A stretch of DNA of 64,000 nucleotides, from positions 930,001 to 994,000 of the forward strand of contig NC_089429.1 in NCBI RefSeq assembly GCF_026210795.1. The letters are read 5' to 3'. This DNA is from Rhizophagus irregularis (taxonomy: Eukaryota > Glomeromycota > Glomeromycetes > Glomerales > Glomeraceae). The position numbers were made by a program, and so were the translations under genes. Position 1 is the stretch's first letter, and each line of letters starts with the position of its first letter. Below the pieces are notes generated by a model. The model saw only the letters and a program-made list of their open reading frames with translations. It was not told where the DNA came from and ran no database searches. Below are positions 44,521-62,179 of this stretch, piece by piece.

Positions 44521-46859
44521 AAGAAAAAAAATGATTAATAAGTTTCAAAAAAAGAAGTAATAGTAAACAAATAATAATAAAAAAAGACATACAGTACTTC
44601 GTTTTCTTAGTAGTTAGACCTGTTTTAAAAGAAGAAACTACAGTATCTTGTAACTATCTAAAGAAAAAACGGTCAACAAAACATAAAGAGTAAAATAAAG
44701 AAAAATAGCAAAATAATACCTTAAACTGTATCTAGAACTATCTCGAGAAAAGTTATTACAAGTTGTTCTAATAAAAAGAAAAACATTATGGTAATTACAT
44801 TTCAAAAAGTAAAGAATAGTAACTGATCACGAAAGAAAATAAAAATAGAAAAAAAAGTATGTAACGAAAGGTAGATGATCTGATAAACAAATAATTAAAT
44901 GTACGCGTGATAAATCACGTGATTAAAAATTCTGTACTGTACGAAAAAAAAATCGTACAGTCGTAATTCGTACAGTACAGTTTATATGTATACTCGAAAA
45001 TCTTGTACGAAAATATTTTGATCTATCAAGTAAAATAATTGAATGTGCATTACATCGCATAAATGATTACGTCATTCTTCTCTAGTATATAACTTTATAA
45101 TAATTTAATGAAAACTTAAATTCATGGTTTTTATTTTAAATATATTTAAGGCCATTTTTCATTTTTCTCTTTTAAAAGTAAAAATTAAATGGTGATCTTA
45201 AATACGATTCGATAAATTGCATCTATTGTAGAATGTAGAGTTTATTTAATAAAATAACAACAAAGATAATCGAGGCTTACTTTACTGACAACACGCGAGG
45301 CCAGAGTTATGTCGTAATGTGGGCCAGGTGATTAATTGTCAAGTACTGTGTTATCGGTGAAATTTTTGTTGGTCAAACGTCTTTTAATGAAGTGAGCTGC
45401 TGCTCAAAATCCCAATGATCAGAATCCCGTTATAACATAAACTTAACGCTCACAAGTCACAATCCTTGACAAATCATAATCTCGAAAGTTCAAAATCCTG
45501 ACACTTATTATACCGACACTTGATATCTTTTTTTTTTTAATTTTTATATTATTTTTTTAGACGTAATAATTTTGTCACGATTTTAATGTTTTTATTTCAA
45601 AAATTATATTTTTATTAATATTTATTAATTTTAATAATTATACTTCGCAAATTTGACACCACTATAACAGATAATGTTTACTGAAATTATGATTAATCTA
45701 TATCTATATTTATAAAAAAATCCCATAACGTTTAGACTACCCCGCATAAAAAGGTGGATTTAAATTGGATCGTCCACATCATGTGCCTGCGCCCTGTGCT
45801 ACAGATTCTTATATAGGATTCAAAGTGGCGCATCATTTGCCATTGATTAGCTTAATTGGGCAGCCCTAATCCTAATACAATTTCGAATTAAATGACAGAT
45901 TTATAGCAACGAAATTAAACTAAACCAATAAAAAATTTGTTAAGGCTATAAAAATTCCTCACATGAGAAATCATCATTGGCTTTTTAGAAATCGTCATTG
46001 TTTTTTTTTAAAAAAAAAATATTTTTCAGTTTTTTTGGATTTTCCCACATGACGAAAAAAAGATCCTTTTCTTTTAAAAAAATTTTACATTTAATTTTAA
46101 TTTCTTCATCACGAATTTGCCGATCATTTATTGACATTGTCACCTAAGAAAAGGTGACTATTTTATATAAATTCTACAGATCAACATTTACCGTTGAATT
46201 GTCCAGATAGGTACCTACAAAATAAAAAAAAAGGCGGAACAATCGGAACATCCCTGTTGCTGAAAAGCGACGTGAGACAATATTTCCTTTTTGGAAATTA
46301 ATGTAACCAAAAATTTTCCTTTAGGAATACTATTCATTTTTGTTTGTGTAACATAACTGACGAGCGGGAGAAAAGCTACACAATTACACAATTCAAAGGA
46401 TTCTTAACGTGACACCACATGATTGCAATGATTTCAAATAATAGATAAAGATAATACAACAATATATAAAAAAAAATATAATGATATAGTATTTTAGGAC
46501 AATACTCATACTGAATTTTAAAAAAATATTGTTAACACACAAATATGGTGAAAATATTGTCTGTATGAAATTCTTTTGTATGTTTGTGATGTTTCAGCTC
46601 CTAAAAAGTGTAACTAAAAATTTGACGTATTGTAGATCAATTACTAATTGTTTTTTCAAACACGGAGACATGCGTAAATGCACACAATATTAAAATCCAA
46701 AAGTATGAAAAAGTATAAATTAGCAAAAAATTTTCCTAAGAAGACAAAAAATTAAAATTCAATCAAAAAAAAAAAGAAAAAGAAAAAAATACTTTGATAG
46801 TTTTTTTCGCATAATTCAAACTCTTAAAATCAATTAAATTCTTTAAATTTCCTAACAAA
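44521..46859. other. Intergenic region
   Basis: Contains the GTACAGTAC cluster at 44934-44985 and TCACGTGA at 44915-44922. Near 45410-45520 are CAAAATCCTGACA-type short repeats, found inverted near 51565-51600. No gene before the CaaX ORF at 46860. Confidence 0.45.
46714..46720 (+). promoter_or_regulatory. TATA box of CaaX peptide A
   Basis: TATAAAT begins 146 bp before the ATG at 46860. The paralogue has a TATAAATA at almost the same distance (144 bp). Confidence 0.4.
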
Positions 46860-46961
46860 ATGAATCAAACTGAAGTTACCATTAAACTATCCATTCCATC
46901 TATCGCAACTGCTGAAGCCACTGAAAAACCGGGTGAATCTGGTGGCTGTACAATTATGTAA
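46860..46961 (+). CDS. CaaX-box micropeptide A (33 aa), pheromone-precursor-like
   Basis: A 33-codon ORF starts MNQTEVTIKL, has TEKPGESGG at residues 21-29 and ends C30-T-I-M followed by TAA. A Cys-aliphatic-aliphatic-Met C-terminus is a canonical farnesylation box. Tiny precursors with a terminal CaaX are the hallmark of fungal a-factor-type lipopeptide pheromones. It is too short for ordinary gene callers. Support beyond the motif comes from a paralogue at 50734 with the same length, the same Cys position, a shared TEKP and a matching TATA distance. There is no signal peptide, as expected for precursors exported by an ABC transporter. Alternatives are a small prenylated membrane-anchored regulator, or chance. 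Function is inference. Confidence 0.6.
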   Translation: MNQTEVTIKLSIPSIATAEATEKPGESGGCTIM

Positions 46962-48345
46962 TAAAATAAAATTCTTTACATTTACGAATTTTATCGTCAG
47001 ATCTGATTGGAAATTAAACATTTATGTATTGTTAAATAATCATTTGTCTATAATTTGTCTATAGTTTACAACTTTTAAATTCTATTTATTCATTGTACTT
47101 TATATATATATATTTCGTTAGTTTATTTGTGTTATTATATTATCAAATTACTTAATATTCGAATCACTATTACATATTTTGTCTTGTATTCTGTATTTAG
47201 GGACATGTTTTAAAACGATTTCGGTGGTTTAAAACATGTGTTAAAGTTAAAAAATGTTTTAAAACACTTCGATATTATAAATTTTAAATCTTAAATTTAG
47301 GTTAAAAAATCAATTTATATATAATAAAACGAAAACTGTTTTAGAACATGTTGTTTTAAATTACGTGCCATACCTATCTGTATTTTATCATTTGTGTATT
47401 CTAAAAATTACAAAAATAAAATCACATCTTTAAATTCATTATTTAAAATGTTCTAAATTCTAATAATTTTGGCAAGTTTGAGGTTGCCTTAAAAGTTGTC
47501 TAAACCATAACTAATTTTCTAATAGTGTACACAGAAAATTTTCTATGCTGATCACGTAATAAGAAAAAAAATCTTTTTGATGCAAATACACAATATTTAT
47601 TAGGACCAGTTGATCATCTTTATAAGTAACGAAAAAAATCAAACTTATTTTATGTCAAGCAGGAAAAAAAAAATTCTAATTTCGCTCTGAAATTATGTAT
47701 CACGTGATTGACGTGACAGATCAGCCACGTTTTTTTAAACTTTAACAAACCTTTTCCTTTCTCACAGTCTCACCCTTTCCCTTCCCCGTCTTTTTCACTT
47801 CCTCTTGTTAATTTATTAATCTTATTAGTTAAAAAAAAAAAATAAACTTCAGTTTTTTTGCTTTATATTAAATAAAAACTAAAGGGGAGTTAGGACTATA
47901 AAATATAAAATATATGAAATGTGAATTATTTTGAACTTGTTCATTTCTAATAAAATCATGACATTCAGTTTGAATTTATAATAAATATTTTTCAACCATA
48001 ATTGAGTTAATTATGCAAATTTTTTAGTATCTTAATTTTATCATACCTTCAGAATTGTTATTTTTTGTACAGCAGTGAAAGGAGATGTTTTTTATATGAA
48101 AAGTTCTATATAAAATTTACATACAAATTTTATATAATTTTAAGGACCCAACATGGATTTTATGTAAATGTGTAAAATATGTCAATGTAGTTTTTAAGAT
48201 ATAAAACATATTTCATATAGTTTTAAATAAGTATTATTTAATATTATAAATTGTGAATTCAGTTTACTTTAGAAAATGTATTTATACAATATAAATTTTA
48301 AATAATATTTTTATATTTAAATAAAAAAATAAATAAGAATGTTTT
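46962..48345. other. Intergenic region between the CaaX ORFs, left part
   Basis: AT-rich; ACATGTTTTAAAAC appears in both orientations near 47200-47360. TCACGTGA lies at 47700-47707. No gene seen. Confidence 0.45.
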
Positions 48346-48840
48346 TATTTAATTATCAAAAAAAAAACGTTGCGAAACGTTTTTTTTTTAATTAAACTAT
48401 CTAAAAAAACGTTTTCGCAACGTTTTTTAACAAATTAGCAAAAAAAAAAATGGTGTGAAACGTTTCTTTTTATTAAATTTTCTATTAAAAACGTTTTCGC
48501 AACGTTTTTTAACAAATTAGCAAAAAAAAAATGGTGTGAAACGTTTCTTTTTATTAAATTTTCTATTAAAAACGTTTTCGCAACATTTTTTAATAAATTA
48601 TCAAAAAAAAAAAAGTTGCGAAACGTTTTTTTTATTAAATTTTCTATTAAAAAACATTTTCGCAACGCTTTTTTAACAAATTTTCAAAAAAAAAGTTGTG
48701 AAACGTTTTTTATTAGATCATTTATCAAAAAAACGTTTCGCAACATTTTTATTTAATTATCAAAAAAAAATATTGTGAAACTGTTTTTTAATTAAAACTA
48801 TATAAAAAACGTTTTCACAACGGTTTTATTCAAAACATTT
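48346..48840. repeat. Tandem ~81-bp repeat with ACGTTTTCGCAACGTTTT core
   Basis: Units start at about 48409, 48491, 48572 and 48654, i.e. 81-82 bp apart, with degenerate copies on both sides. Each unit holds a GTTGCGAAACGTTTTT-type block and its near-complement, so the array is self-complementary like the two TGACGT arrays but unrelated in sequence. The minus-strand ORF at 48435-48665 is repeat-derived. Confidence 0.85.
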
Positions 48841-50733
48841 TCGTTAAAATACAATAATTTTGTTATCACCACATATTTTTTGTATATTTGATTGAATAAA
48901 TTACACCTTTACGTTATTTTAAGCGTGATTTTTCAAAATTATATTATATATTAGGCTTGTAACAAATGAAAAAAATGCTAATATTTTAACAAAAATTTTT
49001 TAATTTTTTAAAAAATAAACTGTTTGTAGTTCATAGAATATTATGTAGAGCCACAAAATTTAAATACATTACAATAGGAAAACATATCAATAATAATTTA
49101 TAAATAAAAGAATGTAATGATGCAAAAAGGTTAAAGAAAAAATATTTTTAACTTGTTTTTAAAAAAATTTTTAGGTATGATCATTTTATATGTTGCAGAT
49201 CAAAGATCATGGTTTTTTTTTGTATTAGATGATCGCTAAGAAAAGTTCGCAACTAGTACTACACGTCTTTTTTTTTATTATTTCTTTACAAACATTTTTT
49301 CAATTTGTAAATATTCTATAAAAAACTTTCAAGAATAATAATGTTCTAAATATAAACTAAATATTTATTTATTTATAAATAACTTTACATTCGTATAGAT
49401 TTATCCCTGATATGAGTACTACCCATTTGAGTACTACCTGCTACACAACTTTCTGTAAAAATTAATTTATTTTTAGCTCCATAAAAGAATTATCAAGAAC
49501 GTGCTGTTTTCGATAGAGGTCATTTGATAGGATCAGATTGTGCTCCCGTAAAGTGACACAACCTGGATCTAGAACACACTTTTTTTTTTGTATTTAAAAA
49601 GGTACAAAAACAAATGATTATCAATCACGTGATATTATACTACCTTACGTAAAATGAAACACTAAACACTAAGGGGAATATTTACAAAGAGACAAATAAG
49701 CTATAGATAATAAGAATCATTGCTAAGAATTTATGATAATCAGTAATCGAATAATAATAATGAAAAAAAAAATAAAAATAAAAATAAGCCAATTAACCAT
49801 TTTTAAAAATTGTTCAAAATTAATCAAACAATCATCACTTTTGCTTTTAATATTATTATTTATCTATTATTTACCCATTTTTTTTTTAATAAGATGATTG
49901 TGAAAACTCTTGCTGCTGCCGGAATAAACTCATCTGATGGAAAATTACTTTTCCATTTTTATTGCAAGCTATCCCAAATTTTTATGCTAAGCTGCTCAAC
50001 CAGACATATTATGATTTTCACTTTTACATCTTTTACATACTAGCTAGCACATCAATTAACAAAAAGATTTATTGAATATATTTGAACATATTATTATAAT
50101 ATATGATAATTGCTTTGATTTCATTTTGTAAGGTTTAATTTAAATATATCATAAATAAATTATTATCGTTATCACACGGAAATGTATCGTGACAATGACT
50201 GTAAGCAAAGAATACTTAGTTTCAAATTATGCATGAACGTGTACAAATAAAAAATTTAAAATCAAGAAAATTAATCTGTGCGACGGTCGATTTACTTGTT
50301 GGGAATATGGCCGACGTATCCGTAACGCATGAATATTATTACTATAACAGATAATAGATTTATACCAATCTTTAAATAATTTCTAAAAAAGGATATACCC
50401 GATATGACCTGGACAATTTTGAAACATAAAGGGAGAATATCAATAACAAAACAATACAATGCATGGGGGAGGAAATAATAATGAAAAATAAATTACATAA
50501 TAAGAAAACAATGTAAAGTATGTAAAATTCTAATTTTCTACGATGATAATAGATATTTTAAAAGCCTAAAATTTGTTTGTTTGATTTATTATAAATACGC
50601 TTTGCTTCGCCTTGTAAAATCCCATCAAAAGAAAAAAGTTCAAAGAACAAAAAAAAATAACTAATCAAATTAATCAAAGAAATCAAATAAATATTAAATT
50701 CTCAAAATTCTTTCTCAAGTAAATTAATCAAAA
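48841..50733. other. Intergenic region between the CaaX ORFs, right part
   Basis: AT-rich, with TCACGTGA at 49625-49632. The 77-codon ORF at 49810-50043 has no recognisable family. Confidence 0.45.
50590..50597 (+). promoter_or_regulatory. TATA box of CaaX peptide B
   Basis: TATAAATA begins 144 bp before the ATG at 50734, mirroring peptide A. The A-rich leader between them has repeated AATCAAA steps, also as in A. Confidence 0.4.
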
Positions 50734-50835
50734 ATGAATCCAACAACTATCACCTCTAAACCAATTGTTATTGTTACTTCCGAAATAACCGAAAAACCTG
50801 ATGGTAATCCTACAAACTCATGCTCTATAATGTAA
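50734..50835 (+). CDS. CaaX-box micropeptide B (33 aa), pheromone-precursor-like
   Basis: A 33-codon ORF, a diverged paralogue of the ORF at 46860 in the same orientation 3.9 kb away. It starts MNPTTITSKPIVIVTSEI, has TEKPDGNP (residues 19-26) and ends C30-S-I-M followed by TAA. The two peptides share length, MN start, a beta-prone Ile/Val/Thr-rich first half, TEK-P, a Gly/Asn/Pro/Ser-rich linker and C-[ST]-I-M. Selection for the C-terminus despite divergence elsewhere is what prenylated-peptide precursors show. The predicted fate is farnesylation at C30, removal of the last three residues, and carboxymethylation. The mature N-terminus cannot be told from sequence. The role as a mating pheromone is inference. 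Confidence 0.6.
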   Translation: MNPTTITSKPIVIVTSEITEKPDGNPTNSCSIM

Positions 50836-52197
50836 ACGGAAAATTCTTCTATGGGGACGGCACAAACGACTTAACGACTTCGGTTATCACATGAAGATCA
50901 ATTTTAACCAAAAAATTATACCTAATGACTATTCGTTACGAAATGGCCTGGAGCTATTATTTCTATTAAATTTCTTTATATCAACTTGTATCATATGTAT
51001 CATAAAAAAAATATCTTGTATAATTTAAAATATTATTTGTAATTTTGAATATTTTTTATATTTGTTTACTTTTTCATTAAAATAAAAATTTTTGATTTTA
51101 CGTATTATAACTGAAATTATCTAAATGTCCTTCTGTTGCGCTTCATTTTCAAAGATGCTTAATATTGTTTAATATTGTTTATTACACAGCAGCTGCCGTG
51201 TGATCAACTCCTTAAAAATGTGACCGTAAATCCAAACTATTTTTAATCACCATTGAGTACCAATTTTGCCGTAGCATGTCAATCCGGCTGATCATTTCAA
51301 ATTCTCGAACCTAAGAGGATTTTATTAACTTGTCCTGTCTTGTCCTGTCTAGCACTATAATAAGTACTATAATACTTCCGGAAAAAAAAAATTGTGCAGA
51401 TCATGCCCATATTTTGAAGCAAATTGAAATTCAAAATGTGTATTTGTTTTTTTATTGTAACATTATAATGATGTCAATGTAATGTTTTGCGTATAAAGAT
51501 ATAATTTTTTTTAATAACCTGCTGATTAGAATTTAATAATCATTTTTTATTCATGAGGAAATTAAGTGTCAGGATAAAAAAGTGTCGGGATAATGAATGT
51601 CTGGATTTTGAAATTTTAAGATTTCCATTTTTTTTTTGTTCGAAAAAGGACAAATAAGATCGTGATTCTAATGTTAAATGTAAAAAAAGGATGAAAATAA
51701 ATTAAGTAAATAAGACAATTTTCACAATTGCGCCAAGAACCTCTCCGTAGTTAAGATAAAATCCCCCTACCAACATATGCAATTTTCAATTGAAAAAAAT
51801 ACATAAACATTACTACCATTTTAATTATTGATTTTAAAAAACATTCGACATATTACAAATAATTGATAATTAACGATATGTTGTTTATGGTCGAAAAAAT
51901 TAATCTATCAATATGCTTTAAAATAAATATTCTATAAAAGACTAGACTAATTATTAATATATTTGTCTTGAAAAATTTAATACGAAACTTATTTGTGAAG
52001 TAAATATAAATTCTAGTTAATAATTCATGTTAAATTAAAAATTTGTTTGATAATATATGATTAATCTTATGATTTTGATTACAACATTGGCTATATTACT
52101 ACGTTGATACTCGGTGGCAAAAGTTTTCCGAAATAATTCATTAGATAATTCGATACCATAAGTATAGGAACATAATTAGAGTATTATGGATTTATGG
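50836..52197. other. Intergenic region
   Basis: AT-rich. Contains TTGTCCTGTC direct repeats near 51330 and GTGTCGGGAT-type motifs near 51570. No gene seen. Confidence 0.45.
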
Positions 52198-57193: not shown

Positions 57194-57340
57194 GGCACAA
57201 CCATGGAAGTTATGTGGACAAATTTACACTGCATGGAATTTGGTGTAATTGTTATTACGCCAACTTCTTTTTTCCAACGCGTCGATCACAATATTTTTTT
57301 TTAAAAAAAAAAAGTTTCAAACAAAAAAAAAAATTCAAAC

Positions 57341-60300
57341 ATGTCATCCCGAAATGATATTAAGTGTAAAAATTGTAATGATTTTTATACAGATATAAAA
57401 CATAAATGGTGTAAACCATGTCAAATAAATAAAGTTATAAAAAGTGTTACAAATTGGACTAGTGGAAATGAAAAAATTGAACATTTTATTCAAGAAGCAC
57501 AATTAATGTTTGAAGGATATTATGATGCAATAGTTGAATGGATACCATACAATCAATTTAACGATATCAAAGAAATAAATAAAAGTAAATTTTCTGCAGT
57601 ATATTCAGCAATATGGAAAGATGGTCCATTGCAACATGATGAACATTATGAAGAGTTGAGGAGAGTATCTAACAAAGAAGTTATCTTAAAATATTTCTAT
57701 AACTTACAAAATATTGTCAATGATTTATTATATGAGGTATGAAATTTTCAATTTCTTTATAATATTATTTAAGTACTGTTTATTATAACAATCACTTTTT
57801 ATATTCAACAGGCTAAATTATATTCTATTGAAAGGGTAAATATGATCTTTTTAATATCTTATAATCTCATTCAATCACTCTTTATTTAATACCTTTCTAT
57901 ATTTAACAGATTATACCAAATTATACAAAAAGAGACGGAGATTATCTTAAAATATATGGAATATCTCAAAATCCAGATACAAAATATTATATCTTAGTTT
58001 TTAATGATAGTTATTGTCTAAAATGTGGTGAAATTTATACAGAAGATAGGAAATTAAATAATAAATGGTGCAAGCCATGTCAAATGAATAATTTAAAAAA
58101 TCGGTTTGAAGACTGGACCAGTGGAAACGAAAAAATTAATAAATTTATTCAAAAACTTCAATTAAAAATCAATCATCATAGTGATATTATAATTGAATGG
58201 ATACCATATTACCAGTTTAGTGATATTAAAAAAATAAGCAAAAGTGATCTTACTGAAGTATATTCAGCAAAGTGGAAAGATGGACCATTTCAATATGATA
58301 AGAATTTGGGAGAGTACTTAAGATTACCTTACAAAGAAATTGCTTTGAAGTATTTTTATAATTTACAAAATATCAATGATTTTTTATTTGAGGTATGGAA
58401 TTTCTGGTTCTTTTATAATTAAATACTTTTATTATAACGATAATAACTTTTCTATATTATATTTTAACAGATTAAATCTTATTCTATAGAAATAGATTCT
58501 TATTTTATAGAAATGGATAAGAACTATAACAGTTTTAATATATATGGGATATCTCAAAATCCAAATACAAAAGATTATATCGTAGTCCTTAATAATGGTT
58601 ATTGTGAAAACTGTAGTAAAGTATATACAAATATAAAGGAAAAATGGTGCAAAACATGCCAATTAAATAATTCCGAAAAAAAATTTTCATTTGGAATCAG
58701 TGAAAATGAAAACATTGATAATTTCATCCAAGAAATGCAACTTAAAATTAGTTGTTCAAGTGATATAATAGTTGAATGGATACCATACAACCAATTTGGC
58801 ATTATTAAAGAAATAAGTAAAGGTGATTCTACTGCGGTATATTCAGCAATCTGGAAAGATGGTCCATTACAACATGATAAACATAACGGAGAGTTGAGAA
58901 GAATGCCTAATAAAGAAGTTGCTTTAAAATATTTGTGTAATTCTCAAGATCTTAATAATGAATTTATAAATGTGGTATGAATTTTAATTAATTGTTGTTA
59001 TCTAATTTAAATATTTTATTTGTTATAATAATTTTTACATCTTAACAGGTTAAATCATATTCTATTGAAGTCGATCCATATAATTATATTCTTAATATAC
59101 ATGGAATATCTCAAAATCTAAATACAAAAGATTATGTTATAGTTCTTGATAATGGTTATTGTGAAAACTGTAGTGAAGTATATACAAATATAAAGGAAAA
59201 ATGGTGTAAAACATGTCAATTAAATAGTTTTGAAAAAAAATTTTCATATGGAATTAGTGAAAATGAAATCATTGATAATTTCATCCAAGAAATGCAACTT
59301 AAAATTAGCCATCCAAGTGATATAATAGTTGAATGGATACCATACAACCAGCAATTCGATTGTATTGAAGAAATAGGCAAAATTGGTTCTACTATATTAT
59401 ATTCAGCAATATGGAAAGATGGTCCATTACAAATTGATGAACATTATGGTATATTAAAAAGGATATCCGATAAAAAAGTTACTCTAAAATATTTACATAA
59501 TTCATATAATTCATCAAATATTGCTAATAAATTATTAAATGAGGTAAATGTTTTTCTTAAAATTAAGTAATTATTTGTTTTAATAATATAATAATGACAT
59601 TTCTATATAAATAGTTTGGTCAACAACATTTTATTCGTAGAACAGGTTTAATTCTTAATTTATTTGGTTTAACCCAAAATTCAAATACAAATAATTATAT
59701 TTTAGTTTTTAATAATAATTATTGTGAAAATTGTAATAATAAATCATATACACATATAAATTATAAGTGGTGTAAACAGTGTCAATTAAATAATTTAAAG
59801 AAATCTTTTGTAAATTGGGCCAGTGGAAATGAAAAAATTGATAATTTTATTCAAGAAATGCAATTAAAAATTAATGATGATTATGATATTATAGTTGAAT
59901 GGATACCATATAACCAGTTTAGTGATATTAAAGAAATAAGTAAGAATGATTCTTTTGCAGTATATTCAGCAGTATGGAAAAGTGGCCCATTAAGATATGA
60001 TACATTTTATAATAAGTTACAAAGATATTCACTTGTTGATAATAAAGTTTTTTTAAAATATTTTTATAGTTTACAAAATATTACTAATGAGGTATGAACT
60101 TAATCTTTTTAATTTTTTTTTAAATTTAATTAATCATTTTTATATTTCATTTTATATTTTCATAGATTGAATCATATTCCAATAATACATTCAATGGTAA
60201 TCAGAAAATATATGGAGTATCTCAGAATTCAAATACAAAAGATTATCTTATAATATTTCAAGATTATTGTTGTAAAAACTGTGGTGAAATAAATGTGGTG

Positions 60301-62179
60301 GGTAATTTTGGATGGTGTAAACCATGTCAAATAAATAATTTAAAACAAAATTTTGAAAATTGGACTAGTAAAAATAAGGAAATTGATGAATTAATTCAGA
60401 AAATGCAATTAAAAATTGGTAAAGATGATGATATAATTATTGAATGGATATCATACAATCAATTTATTAATATTAAAGAGATAAGTAAAGATGATTTTGC
60501 TATGATATATTCAGCAATATGGATGGAAGGTCCACTACAATATGATTGGTATAATGGTAGAGAGCAAAAAAGAATGTTTACTAATAAAAAAGTTGCTTTA
60601 AAATATTTATGTAATTCACAAGATATTAATGAAATTTTAAATGAGGTATAAATTTGTCTTTTTTCTAAATTTAATCAAATACTTGATTAAAATTAATTCG
60701 TTTAATTTATTAGATTAGAGAGCATTCTATCAGTAATGATGATGAAATTCTTAATATATATGGAATATCTCAATATCCAAGTACAAAAAATTACATTATA
60801 GTACTTCAAGATGGTTATTGTAAAGACTGTGGTAGAATATATACAAATGTAAATAAAAAATGGTGTAAACCATGTCAATTAAATAATTTAGAAAAAAATC
60901 TTTCATATGGAATTAGTGAAAATGAAAGCATTGATAATTTCATCCAAGAAATGCAACTTAAAATTAGTTGTCCAAGTGATATAATAGTTGAATGGATACC
61001 ATATAATCAATTTAGCAATATTGAAGAAATAGGTAAAGGCGGTTTTGCTATAGTATATTCAGCAATATGGAAAGATGGTCCGTTAAAAATTGATTATAGA
61101 TATGACGGAAAGTTGAAAAGAATACCTAATAAGAAAGTTGCTTTGAAGTGTTTAAATAATTCACAAAATATCAATAATAAATTTTTAAATGAGGTATGAA
61201 TTCATTTTTTTTTTTGAATTTAATAAACATTTTTTCAATGCATAGTATTTATTATATTTTGAATTTGACAAACCTTGTCTTTAATGGATATTATTTATTT
61301 TTATAGGTTAAAGAGTATTCTATTAGCAATAATGATAATATTCTTAATTTATATGGAATATCTCAAAATCCTGATACAAAAGATTATATTATGATTTTAA
61401 ATTATGCAAATAATGGGAATATTAATAATTATAGTTATATTAATATTGAATGGTATTGGTTTGAAAGATTATGGATGTTAAGAGATATTATTGAAGGTCT
61501 TAAAAAAATTCATGGAAATAATATGATCCATCGTGATTTTCACACGGGGAATATATTATTATCACTTGATTTTAATAGTTATGGCAAATCTGGAAATCCG
61601 TCTAGTGATTTATATATTTCAGATATGGGATTATGTGGAGAAGTTGGTAATGTAGATGAAACAAAGATTTATGGAGTTATGCCTTATGTAGCCCCAGAAG
61701 TATTAAAAAGCAAACCTTACACCCAAGCAGCAGATATATACAGTTTTGGTATGATTATGTATTTTGTAGCAACTAAAAAACAACCCTTTGCAAATTGTGC
61801 TCATGATAATATATTAGCATTAAATATATGTAATGGAAATAGACCTAAAATCAATGAAAACGAGGTTCCAAAATGTTATGTTGATTTAATGGAAAGGTGT
61901 TGGGATTTAAATCCAAATAATAGGCCAAGTGCTATTGAAGTAAGTGAATTGATTGAATTATTTTGTAATTCCAGTTATATGGGTGCTAATAAGGATAAGG
62001 AAATTGAAAAGCAATTTAAAGAAGCAGAAGAATATAGAAAAGCAAATTATACATCTATAGGAAATAGTCAATTAACTAGTCACCATCCACAAGCTTATTA
62101 CACTTCTCGATTACTCAATCCATTTACCAGAGATCTTTCAAATAATGATACTGATTGTTTAGACTGTATGATTGATTGA
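57341..62179 (+). CDS. TKL-like kinase gene with seven tandem finger/N-lobe modules and one C-lobe (kinase 3)
   Basis: Predicted 1403-residue protein from nine exons, all phase 0: 57341-57736, 57812-57835, 57910-58392, 58471-58974, 59049-59543, 59615-60091, 60166-60645, 60714-61193 and 61307-62179. All introns are GT-AG. Exons 1 and 3-8 each encode one module: a CxxC...WCKxCQ finger, (N)WTSGNE or a variant, IIVEWIPYNQF, a glycine-loop region, YSAIWKDGPL and a beta-3 segment with Lys (VALKYL). Exons 3-8 begin with the usual post-intron segment up to the hinge (IYGISQNPNTKDYIVV), then start a new finger where the C-lobe should follow. Only exon 9 supplies the C-lobe: HRDFHTGN (Asp ~1190), DMG for DFG (Asp ~1219) and APE. 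The only intact glycine loop, GKGGFAIVYSA, is in the last module. It may instead be several mispredicted genes, but no start or stop separates the modules. Confidence 0.82.

Follow-up and report, generated by a model that had tools for sequence, protein, structure and literature searches.

A dispersed family of CaaX micropeptide genes in Rhizophagus irregularis and its possible role as a-factor-type peptide precursors

Pheromone precursors of the a-factor type are known from Ascomycota and Basidiomycota as very short, Ser/Thr-rich proteins that end in a CaaX box and are encoded in several copies. According to the excerpts of the literature on which we draw throughout, putative a-factors of Leotiomycetes have CTVM as their last four residues, or CSIM in a few species, and a Ser/Thr-rich region has been named as support for such precursors (PMC10569646). 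In basidiomycetes, an acidic-basic couplet is found 10 to 15 residues before the CaaX box; genes for a-factor-type precursors are often missed by annotation, and in one mushroom study a CaaX pattern search was needed to find approximately half of the pheromone precursor genes (PMC5473757). For Rhizophagus, the excerpted text of a survey from 2013 reports one STE3 gene along with a STE6 gene, lists no a-factor or alpha-factor genes, and calls for new methods in the search for pheromones (PMC3834313). A putative MAT locus has been discussed and likely asexuality has been argued (PMC11414155), and R. irregularis has been reported to encode KEX2-processed repeat proteins, some of which carry alpha-pheromone-like signatures (PMC6339444). 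Here we describe two short open reading frames (ORFs), ORF1 and ORF2, within a window of 64,000 nucleotides of R. irregularis (assembly GCF_026210795.1, contig NC_089429.1, positions 930,001 to 994,000, forward strand), together with the gene family to which they belong.

Our data indicate that ORF1 and ORF2 belong to a genuine family of CaaX micropeptide genes. Among the papers listed by our searches of the open-licence PubMed Central literature, none was seen to report this family, and five of its peptide strings gave 0 papers. The original prediction, made from the window sequence, described both ORFs accurately: their positions, their 33 codons, a cysteine at residue 30, a TAA stop directly after CTIM or CSIM, and an MN start, a TEKP motif and a C-[ST]-I-M end in common. 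BLASTP aligned the two peptides with 15 of 35 positions identical (E 8e-6, a single comparison), and tblastn searches of the genome with E up to 10 returned 41 matches for ORF2, its own locus included, and 24 for ORF1. The genome searched comprises 146.7 Mb on 32 contigs, labelled here C1, C5, C12 and so forth. A pattern search of the proposed kind (MN...C-[ST]-I-M-stop) was run on this genome as ATGAAY-N63..93-TGY-WCN-ATH-ATG-TAA, with the reversed pattern as a control. We found 61 matches to this strict pattern and 0 to its control. Among the 61 are 54 intact in-frame family members, with 3 out-of-frame family relics and 4 apparently unrelated matches sorted by hand, while base composition predicts approximately 0.09 open in-frame matches and approximately 3 over all frames. 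A relaxed pattern gave 73 matches compared to 10 for its own control.

Overall, a listing filtered for an MN start, 22 to 45 residues and a cysteine fourth from the end contains at least 63 intact genes, which encode 48 distinct proteins of 27 to 38 residues and are spread over 18 of the 32 contigs. These 63 are the 56 rows of a first listing (59 minus three repeats, L010-L012) plus seven added genes. Since the MN start and the position of the cysteine were filters of the listing, the independent fact is that 54 strict members were found where 0.09 were expected. The final box is CSIM in 35 of the genes, CTIM in 23, CTVM in 3, and CTLM and CPLM in 1 each. Eleven further matches (L040, L046, L052, L057, L058, L059, L060, L061, L062, C26:2986268 and C1:6051287) are relics or partial and contain no intact ORF of the listed form. 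An intact ORF with an MK start that ends in CSIM lies at C18:2247562 (L039), approximately 1.2 kb from an MN member and outside every count given here; the family is therefore probably larger than the MN listing.

The 63 genes fall into three classes. Class A, which includes ORF1, contains 22 genes with a leader close to MNQTEVTIKLSIPSIATAEATEKP, followed by a short stretch and then by C-[TP]-x-M; the class shows a conserved leader and, immediately before the cysteine, a segment that varies in both sequence and length. Eleven loci of the genome, the window copy among them, encode exactly the ORF1 protein. Class B, which includes ORF2, contains 35 genes, mostly of the form MNP...KP...TSE.TEKP-GNPTNSCSIM and related tails; on C26, 11 of them lie within 24 kb, and C22 has a tandem row of 5. 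The C17 class contains 6 genes arranged as three divergent pairs approximately 1.0-1.1 kb apart. Divergent pairs approximately 1.0-1.5 kb apart were seen on C17 (L030, L031) and C4 (L034), and the members of such pairs may share a regulatory region.

In an alignment of 17 types, picked by eye for diversity, M1, N2, one proline, the cysteine and the final methionine are invariant. Comparison of class A and class B profiles (built from 7 and 10 sequences) gave a probability of 96% and an E-value of 2.4e-9. When peptide interiors were shuffled with the ends kept, an equally good match arose in 1 of 2000 shuffles for ORF2-ORF1, 0 of 2000 for ORF2-C17, and 32 of 2000 for ORF1-C17. Judged by their sequences, classes A and B are related to each other. 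Serine and threonine make up 25% of the whole precursors compared to 11% of the 137 short ORFs in the window. The family proteins thus resemble a-factor-type precursors in being very short and Ser/Thr-rich, in their C-terminal CaaX box, and in their presence in several copies. Repeated peptide units are absent, and each protein has, by eye, a single C-terminal tail. The KEX2-processed repeat proteins of R. irregularis are likewise candidate signalling peptides, but they are secreted and carry KEX2 sites (PMC6339444), whereas the proteins described here carry single tails with a CaaX end.

ORF1 and ORF2 lie 3.9 kb apart and are, by the listed positions, the only close neighbours from classes A and B. 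They had been described as twins of exactly the same length. We rejected a twin duplication within the window, given that the two ORFs belong to two classes, each dispersed on its own, and the equal length is incidental because family members vary between 27 and 38 residues.

Selection on the family was estimated as omega, the ratio of nonsynonymous to synonymous substitution rates (dN/dS), under codon models on FastTree trees. Class B has an omega of 0.243 with a likelihood ratio test (LRT) statistic of 74, while no LRT above 4.1 arose in 20 neutral simulations on the class B tree. Within class B, omega is 0.41 in the N-terminal part, 0.131 from TEKP onward, and 0.002 in the CaaX codons (LRT 35); for the 13 genes of the ORF2 group it is 0.186. 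The C17 class (omega 0.231, p 0.022) and the leader of class A (omega 0.347, p 0.013) gave values below 1 as well. Comparison with flanking DNA agrees for nine genes of the ORF2 group, in which substitutions per site are 0.050 in the coding sequence (CDS) versus 0.083 in 150-base flanks. Insertions and deletions (indels) in the same nine genes are approximately eightfold rarer in the CDS (0.0047 versus 0.039 per site), and multiples of three comprise 88% of indels in the CDS versus 19% in the flanks. Across nine diverged class A genes, the first 16 codons have 0.076 substitutions per site, indels amount to 0.026 per site in the CDS versus 0.060 in the flanks, and multiples of three comprise 63% versus 21%.

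Because the 63 genes had been selected as intact, we also examined units located by their downstream flank alone. The ORF is intact in 20 of 22 such class A units (match of at least 140 bases) and in 13 of 14 such class B units (at least 130 bases outside a shared end repeat), while simulated neutral survival of the ORF and its cysteine is 5% per lineage in class A and 13% in class B. Paralogues are not independent, and these numbers therefore speak for constraint on the family and not for every copy. The 11 identical class A copies are uninformative on selection because they are too young, the 350 bases upstream being little diverged and about as conserved as the CDS. The variable region of class A shows no significant departure from an omega of 1 under the codon model; its pairwise dN/dS is 1.77 on an uncertain alignment, and for both reasons we claim no positive selection there. 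Overall, the family is constrained at least in class B, in the N-terminal leader of class A, and in the C17 class.

Both window ORFs are preceded by a TATAAAT box (Table 1). Among the 61 members with enough upstream DNA, 50 contain TATAAAT in the slot from -165 to -103, comprising 20 of 22 in class A, 30 of 33 in class B and 0 of 6 in the C17 class. By comparison, 4.4% of 62-base segments drawn at random from the window contain the motif, and so do 1 or 2 of 59-62 members for every one of five other slots upstream. The placement of this motif suggests transcripts whose leader is about 100 bases long.

The genome contains parts with which a-factor systems operate elsewhere, namely STE3, farnesyltransferase beta, STE24 and an ICMT-like gene. 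A genome search found a single STE3 gene (C13:4767083-4768006), a STE24-type CaaX protease gene (C13:4751006-4751624), and a farnesyltransferase beta gene at C5:5.506 Mb along with two more loci that carry its domain. Five matches to the ICMT domain were obtained as well, and the best of them, ICMT-like, is at C5:5535298. The STE24-type protease and STE3 genes lie approximately 15.5 kb apart on the same strand. The search also gave two Homeobox_KN hits, both on C12. Among solved structures, none matches the STE3 exon in sequence.

We assign a probability of approximately 55% to the reading that these genes form a large family of CaaX peptide precursors working like fungal a-factor; a role specifically in mating is less likely than such cell-cell signalling in general. 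Under this reading, the TATA promoter seen in the sequence would drive a short transcript, and the C-terminal cysteine of the 27-38 residue precursor would be farnesylated, the last three residues removed, and the new end carboxyl-methylated. The modifying enzymes would be the farnesyltransferase, CaaX protease and ICMT whose genes were found in this genome. The Ser/Thr-rich N-terminal part might then be removed, perhaps near the Glu-Lys that precedes the tail. Export of the resulting lipopeptide would require no signal peptide, and STE3 of the same or another mycelium would sense it, with recognition between hyphae, mating or fusion as the output. The fixed leader and variable pre-cysteine stretch of class A would fit a released ligand, although faster change in that stretch is not significant. 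With somewhat less than even confidence, we further propose that the family may supply the long-missing STE3 ligands of Glomeromycotina as an expanded a-factor-type set, in which the interchangeable tails of class A would mark hyphal identity in mating or fusion. The original prediction of two twin lipopeptide pheromone precursors holds insofar as these are real CaaX micropeptide genes in a genome with STE3 and CaaX-processing enzymes, while the twins have given way to a family of at least 63. Constraint on the terminal four codons, the absence of which had been named at the outset as grounds for giving up the pheromone proposal, is strong in class B.

Several observations weigh against an a-factor-like role. 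The arrangement of basidiomycete P/R loci, in which pheromone genes lie beside the receptor gene, was not seen at STE3: a scan of approximately 19 kb from STE24 past STE3 contained no small CaaX ORF, and neither the strict nor the relaxed pattern gave an in-frame match on C13, which carries STE3, or on C12, which carries the homeodomain hits. Unlike in described a-factor systems, the one STE3 found faces at least 63 genes with 19 different tails, as delimited here. Aromatic residues are almost lacking (2 in 2,035, one of them in a tail), arginine is absent (0), and an [ED][KRH] couplet is present in 56 of 63 proteins at 3-11 residues before the cysteine, nearer than the 10 to 15 described for basidiomycetes, and is lacking in 7 of 63. 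Pfam returned 0 families for the ORF1 and ORF2 peptides at E up to 10; a match to a curated family does not define a-factors, and finding these is difficult even among relatives (PMC10569646). Class A as a whole has an omega of 0.89, which does not differ from 1 under the codon model, and in the nine diverged class A genes substitutions per site are 0.117 in the CDS versus 0.112 in the flanks. For the CaaX codons of class A alone, the codon model gives an omega of 0.39, which is not significant. A cruder count of singleton substitutions reached significance in none of three classes. Finally, the excerpted results of a co-inoculation study from 2020 include no upregulated mating pheromone genes (PMC7490403). 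The CaaX genes may be absent from that result through missing annotation.

Other roles for the family are conceivable, and the one that survives best, which we nevertheless consider unlikely, is that the prenylated micropeptides are kept inside the cell and never exported, with the CaaX end serving as a membrane anchor that tunes signalling or membrane proteins. The N-terminal part of class B is constrained along with the tail, class A is most conserved in its N-terminal part, and no linkage to STE3 was seen, all of which suit such an anchor; many copies with many different tails, and the fixed leader with a variable segment before the cysteine in class A, suit a released ligand better. We know of no family of free 30-residue CaaX anchors. 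G-protein gamma subunits also have a C-terminal CaaX box, but they are longer, folded proteins, and the window peptides are without a Pfam match. Still less probable is that the lipopeptides are exported but directed at the plant partner or at microbes nearby and not at another hypha. A large and diverse family in an apparent obligate root symbiont would be consistent with such targets, while the presence of STE3 and of the CaaX route, the usual parts of fungal pheromone signalling, speaks against them.

We regard it as highly improbable that the 1.2-1.5 kb units spread as a transposon of which the ORF is an incidental cargo or product, even though the 63 genes lie scattered on 18 contigs, the 11 class A copies with an identical protein differ little in the 350 bases upstream, and a repeat just upstream of the class A unit occurs widely without the gene. 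The DNA common to gene-bearing copies spans 1.2-1.5 kb and often more, and its ends depend on the pair compared. For the downstream part of the class A unit, the matches that reach 140 bases or more number 22, and every one lies at a family member or a relic; the same holds for each match of 200 bases or more to the part starting at 46108 (40 of 65 candidates scored). Away from the genes and their relics, the long matches scored were to the separate repeat. A transposon is thus disfavoured by long unit matches that sit at genes or relics and by pairwise ends that vary, and the class B ORF is constrained while its flanks are less so. That the ORFs are chance products or the final exon of a larger protein is barely credible: each is short by itself, and 8 of the 137 window ORFs of 25-40 residues, ORF1 and ORF2 included, have a cysteine fourth from the end, but chance is rejected by the pattern counts (54 in-frame members against 0.09 expected, with no control match) and by the selection tests, and a terminal exon is disfavoured for ORF2, whose open frame is 35 residues with an in-frame stop just 5' of the ATG and no AG splice acceptor in the six bases between them, an argument restricted to ORF2 given that upstream open frames are longer in other members.

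Coordinates of the family features within the window are given in Table 1. Between ORF1 and ORF2, at 48323-48834, lies an array of repeats around AACGTTTCGCAACG, which alternate in orientation and have a period close to 82 bases. Elsewhere, ORFs of the window include kinase-like, F-box-like and BTB-like types, labelled by eye, and a row of repeated partial kinase-like ORFs with CxxC and a WTSGN-type N-terminal module, also recognized by eye, extends over 57305-62179.

Table 1. Features of the two CaaX micropeptide loci, in window coordinates
Feature	Description	Position	Strand	Remarks
ORF1	class A CaaX micropeptide gene	46860..46961	+	33 aa, CTIM end
ORF2	class B CaaX micropeptide gene	50734..50835	+	33 aa, CSIM end
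TATAAAT box	box of ORF1	46714..46720	+	146 bases 5' of ATG
TATAAAT box	box of ORF2	50590..50596	+	144 bases 5' of ATG
Class A gene unit	DNA common to gene-bearing copies	46108..47636	+	approximate ends
Class B gene unit	DNA common to gene-bearing copies	50142..51328	+	approximate ends; extent varies by copy
Separate dispersed repeat	beside class A unit	45728-46105		at many genome places without a CaaX gene

Taken as precursors of a-factor type, the genes described here may be the ones that an earlier pheromone search missed in supposedly asexual fungi. They provide concrete candidates for the pheromone search that, as far as its excerpted text goes, the 2013 survey left empty (PMC3834313). With synthetic peptides and the single receptor, whether these fungi signal to mates becomes testable. 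If the a-factor-like reading is true, a-factor-type lipopeptides would be greatly expanded in fungi thought to be asexual.

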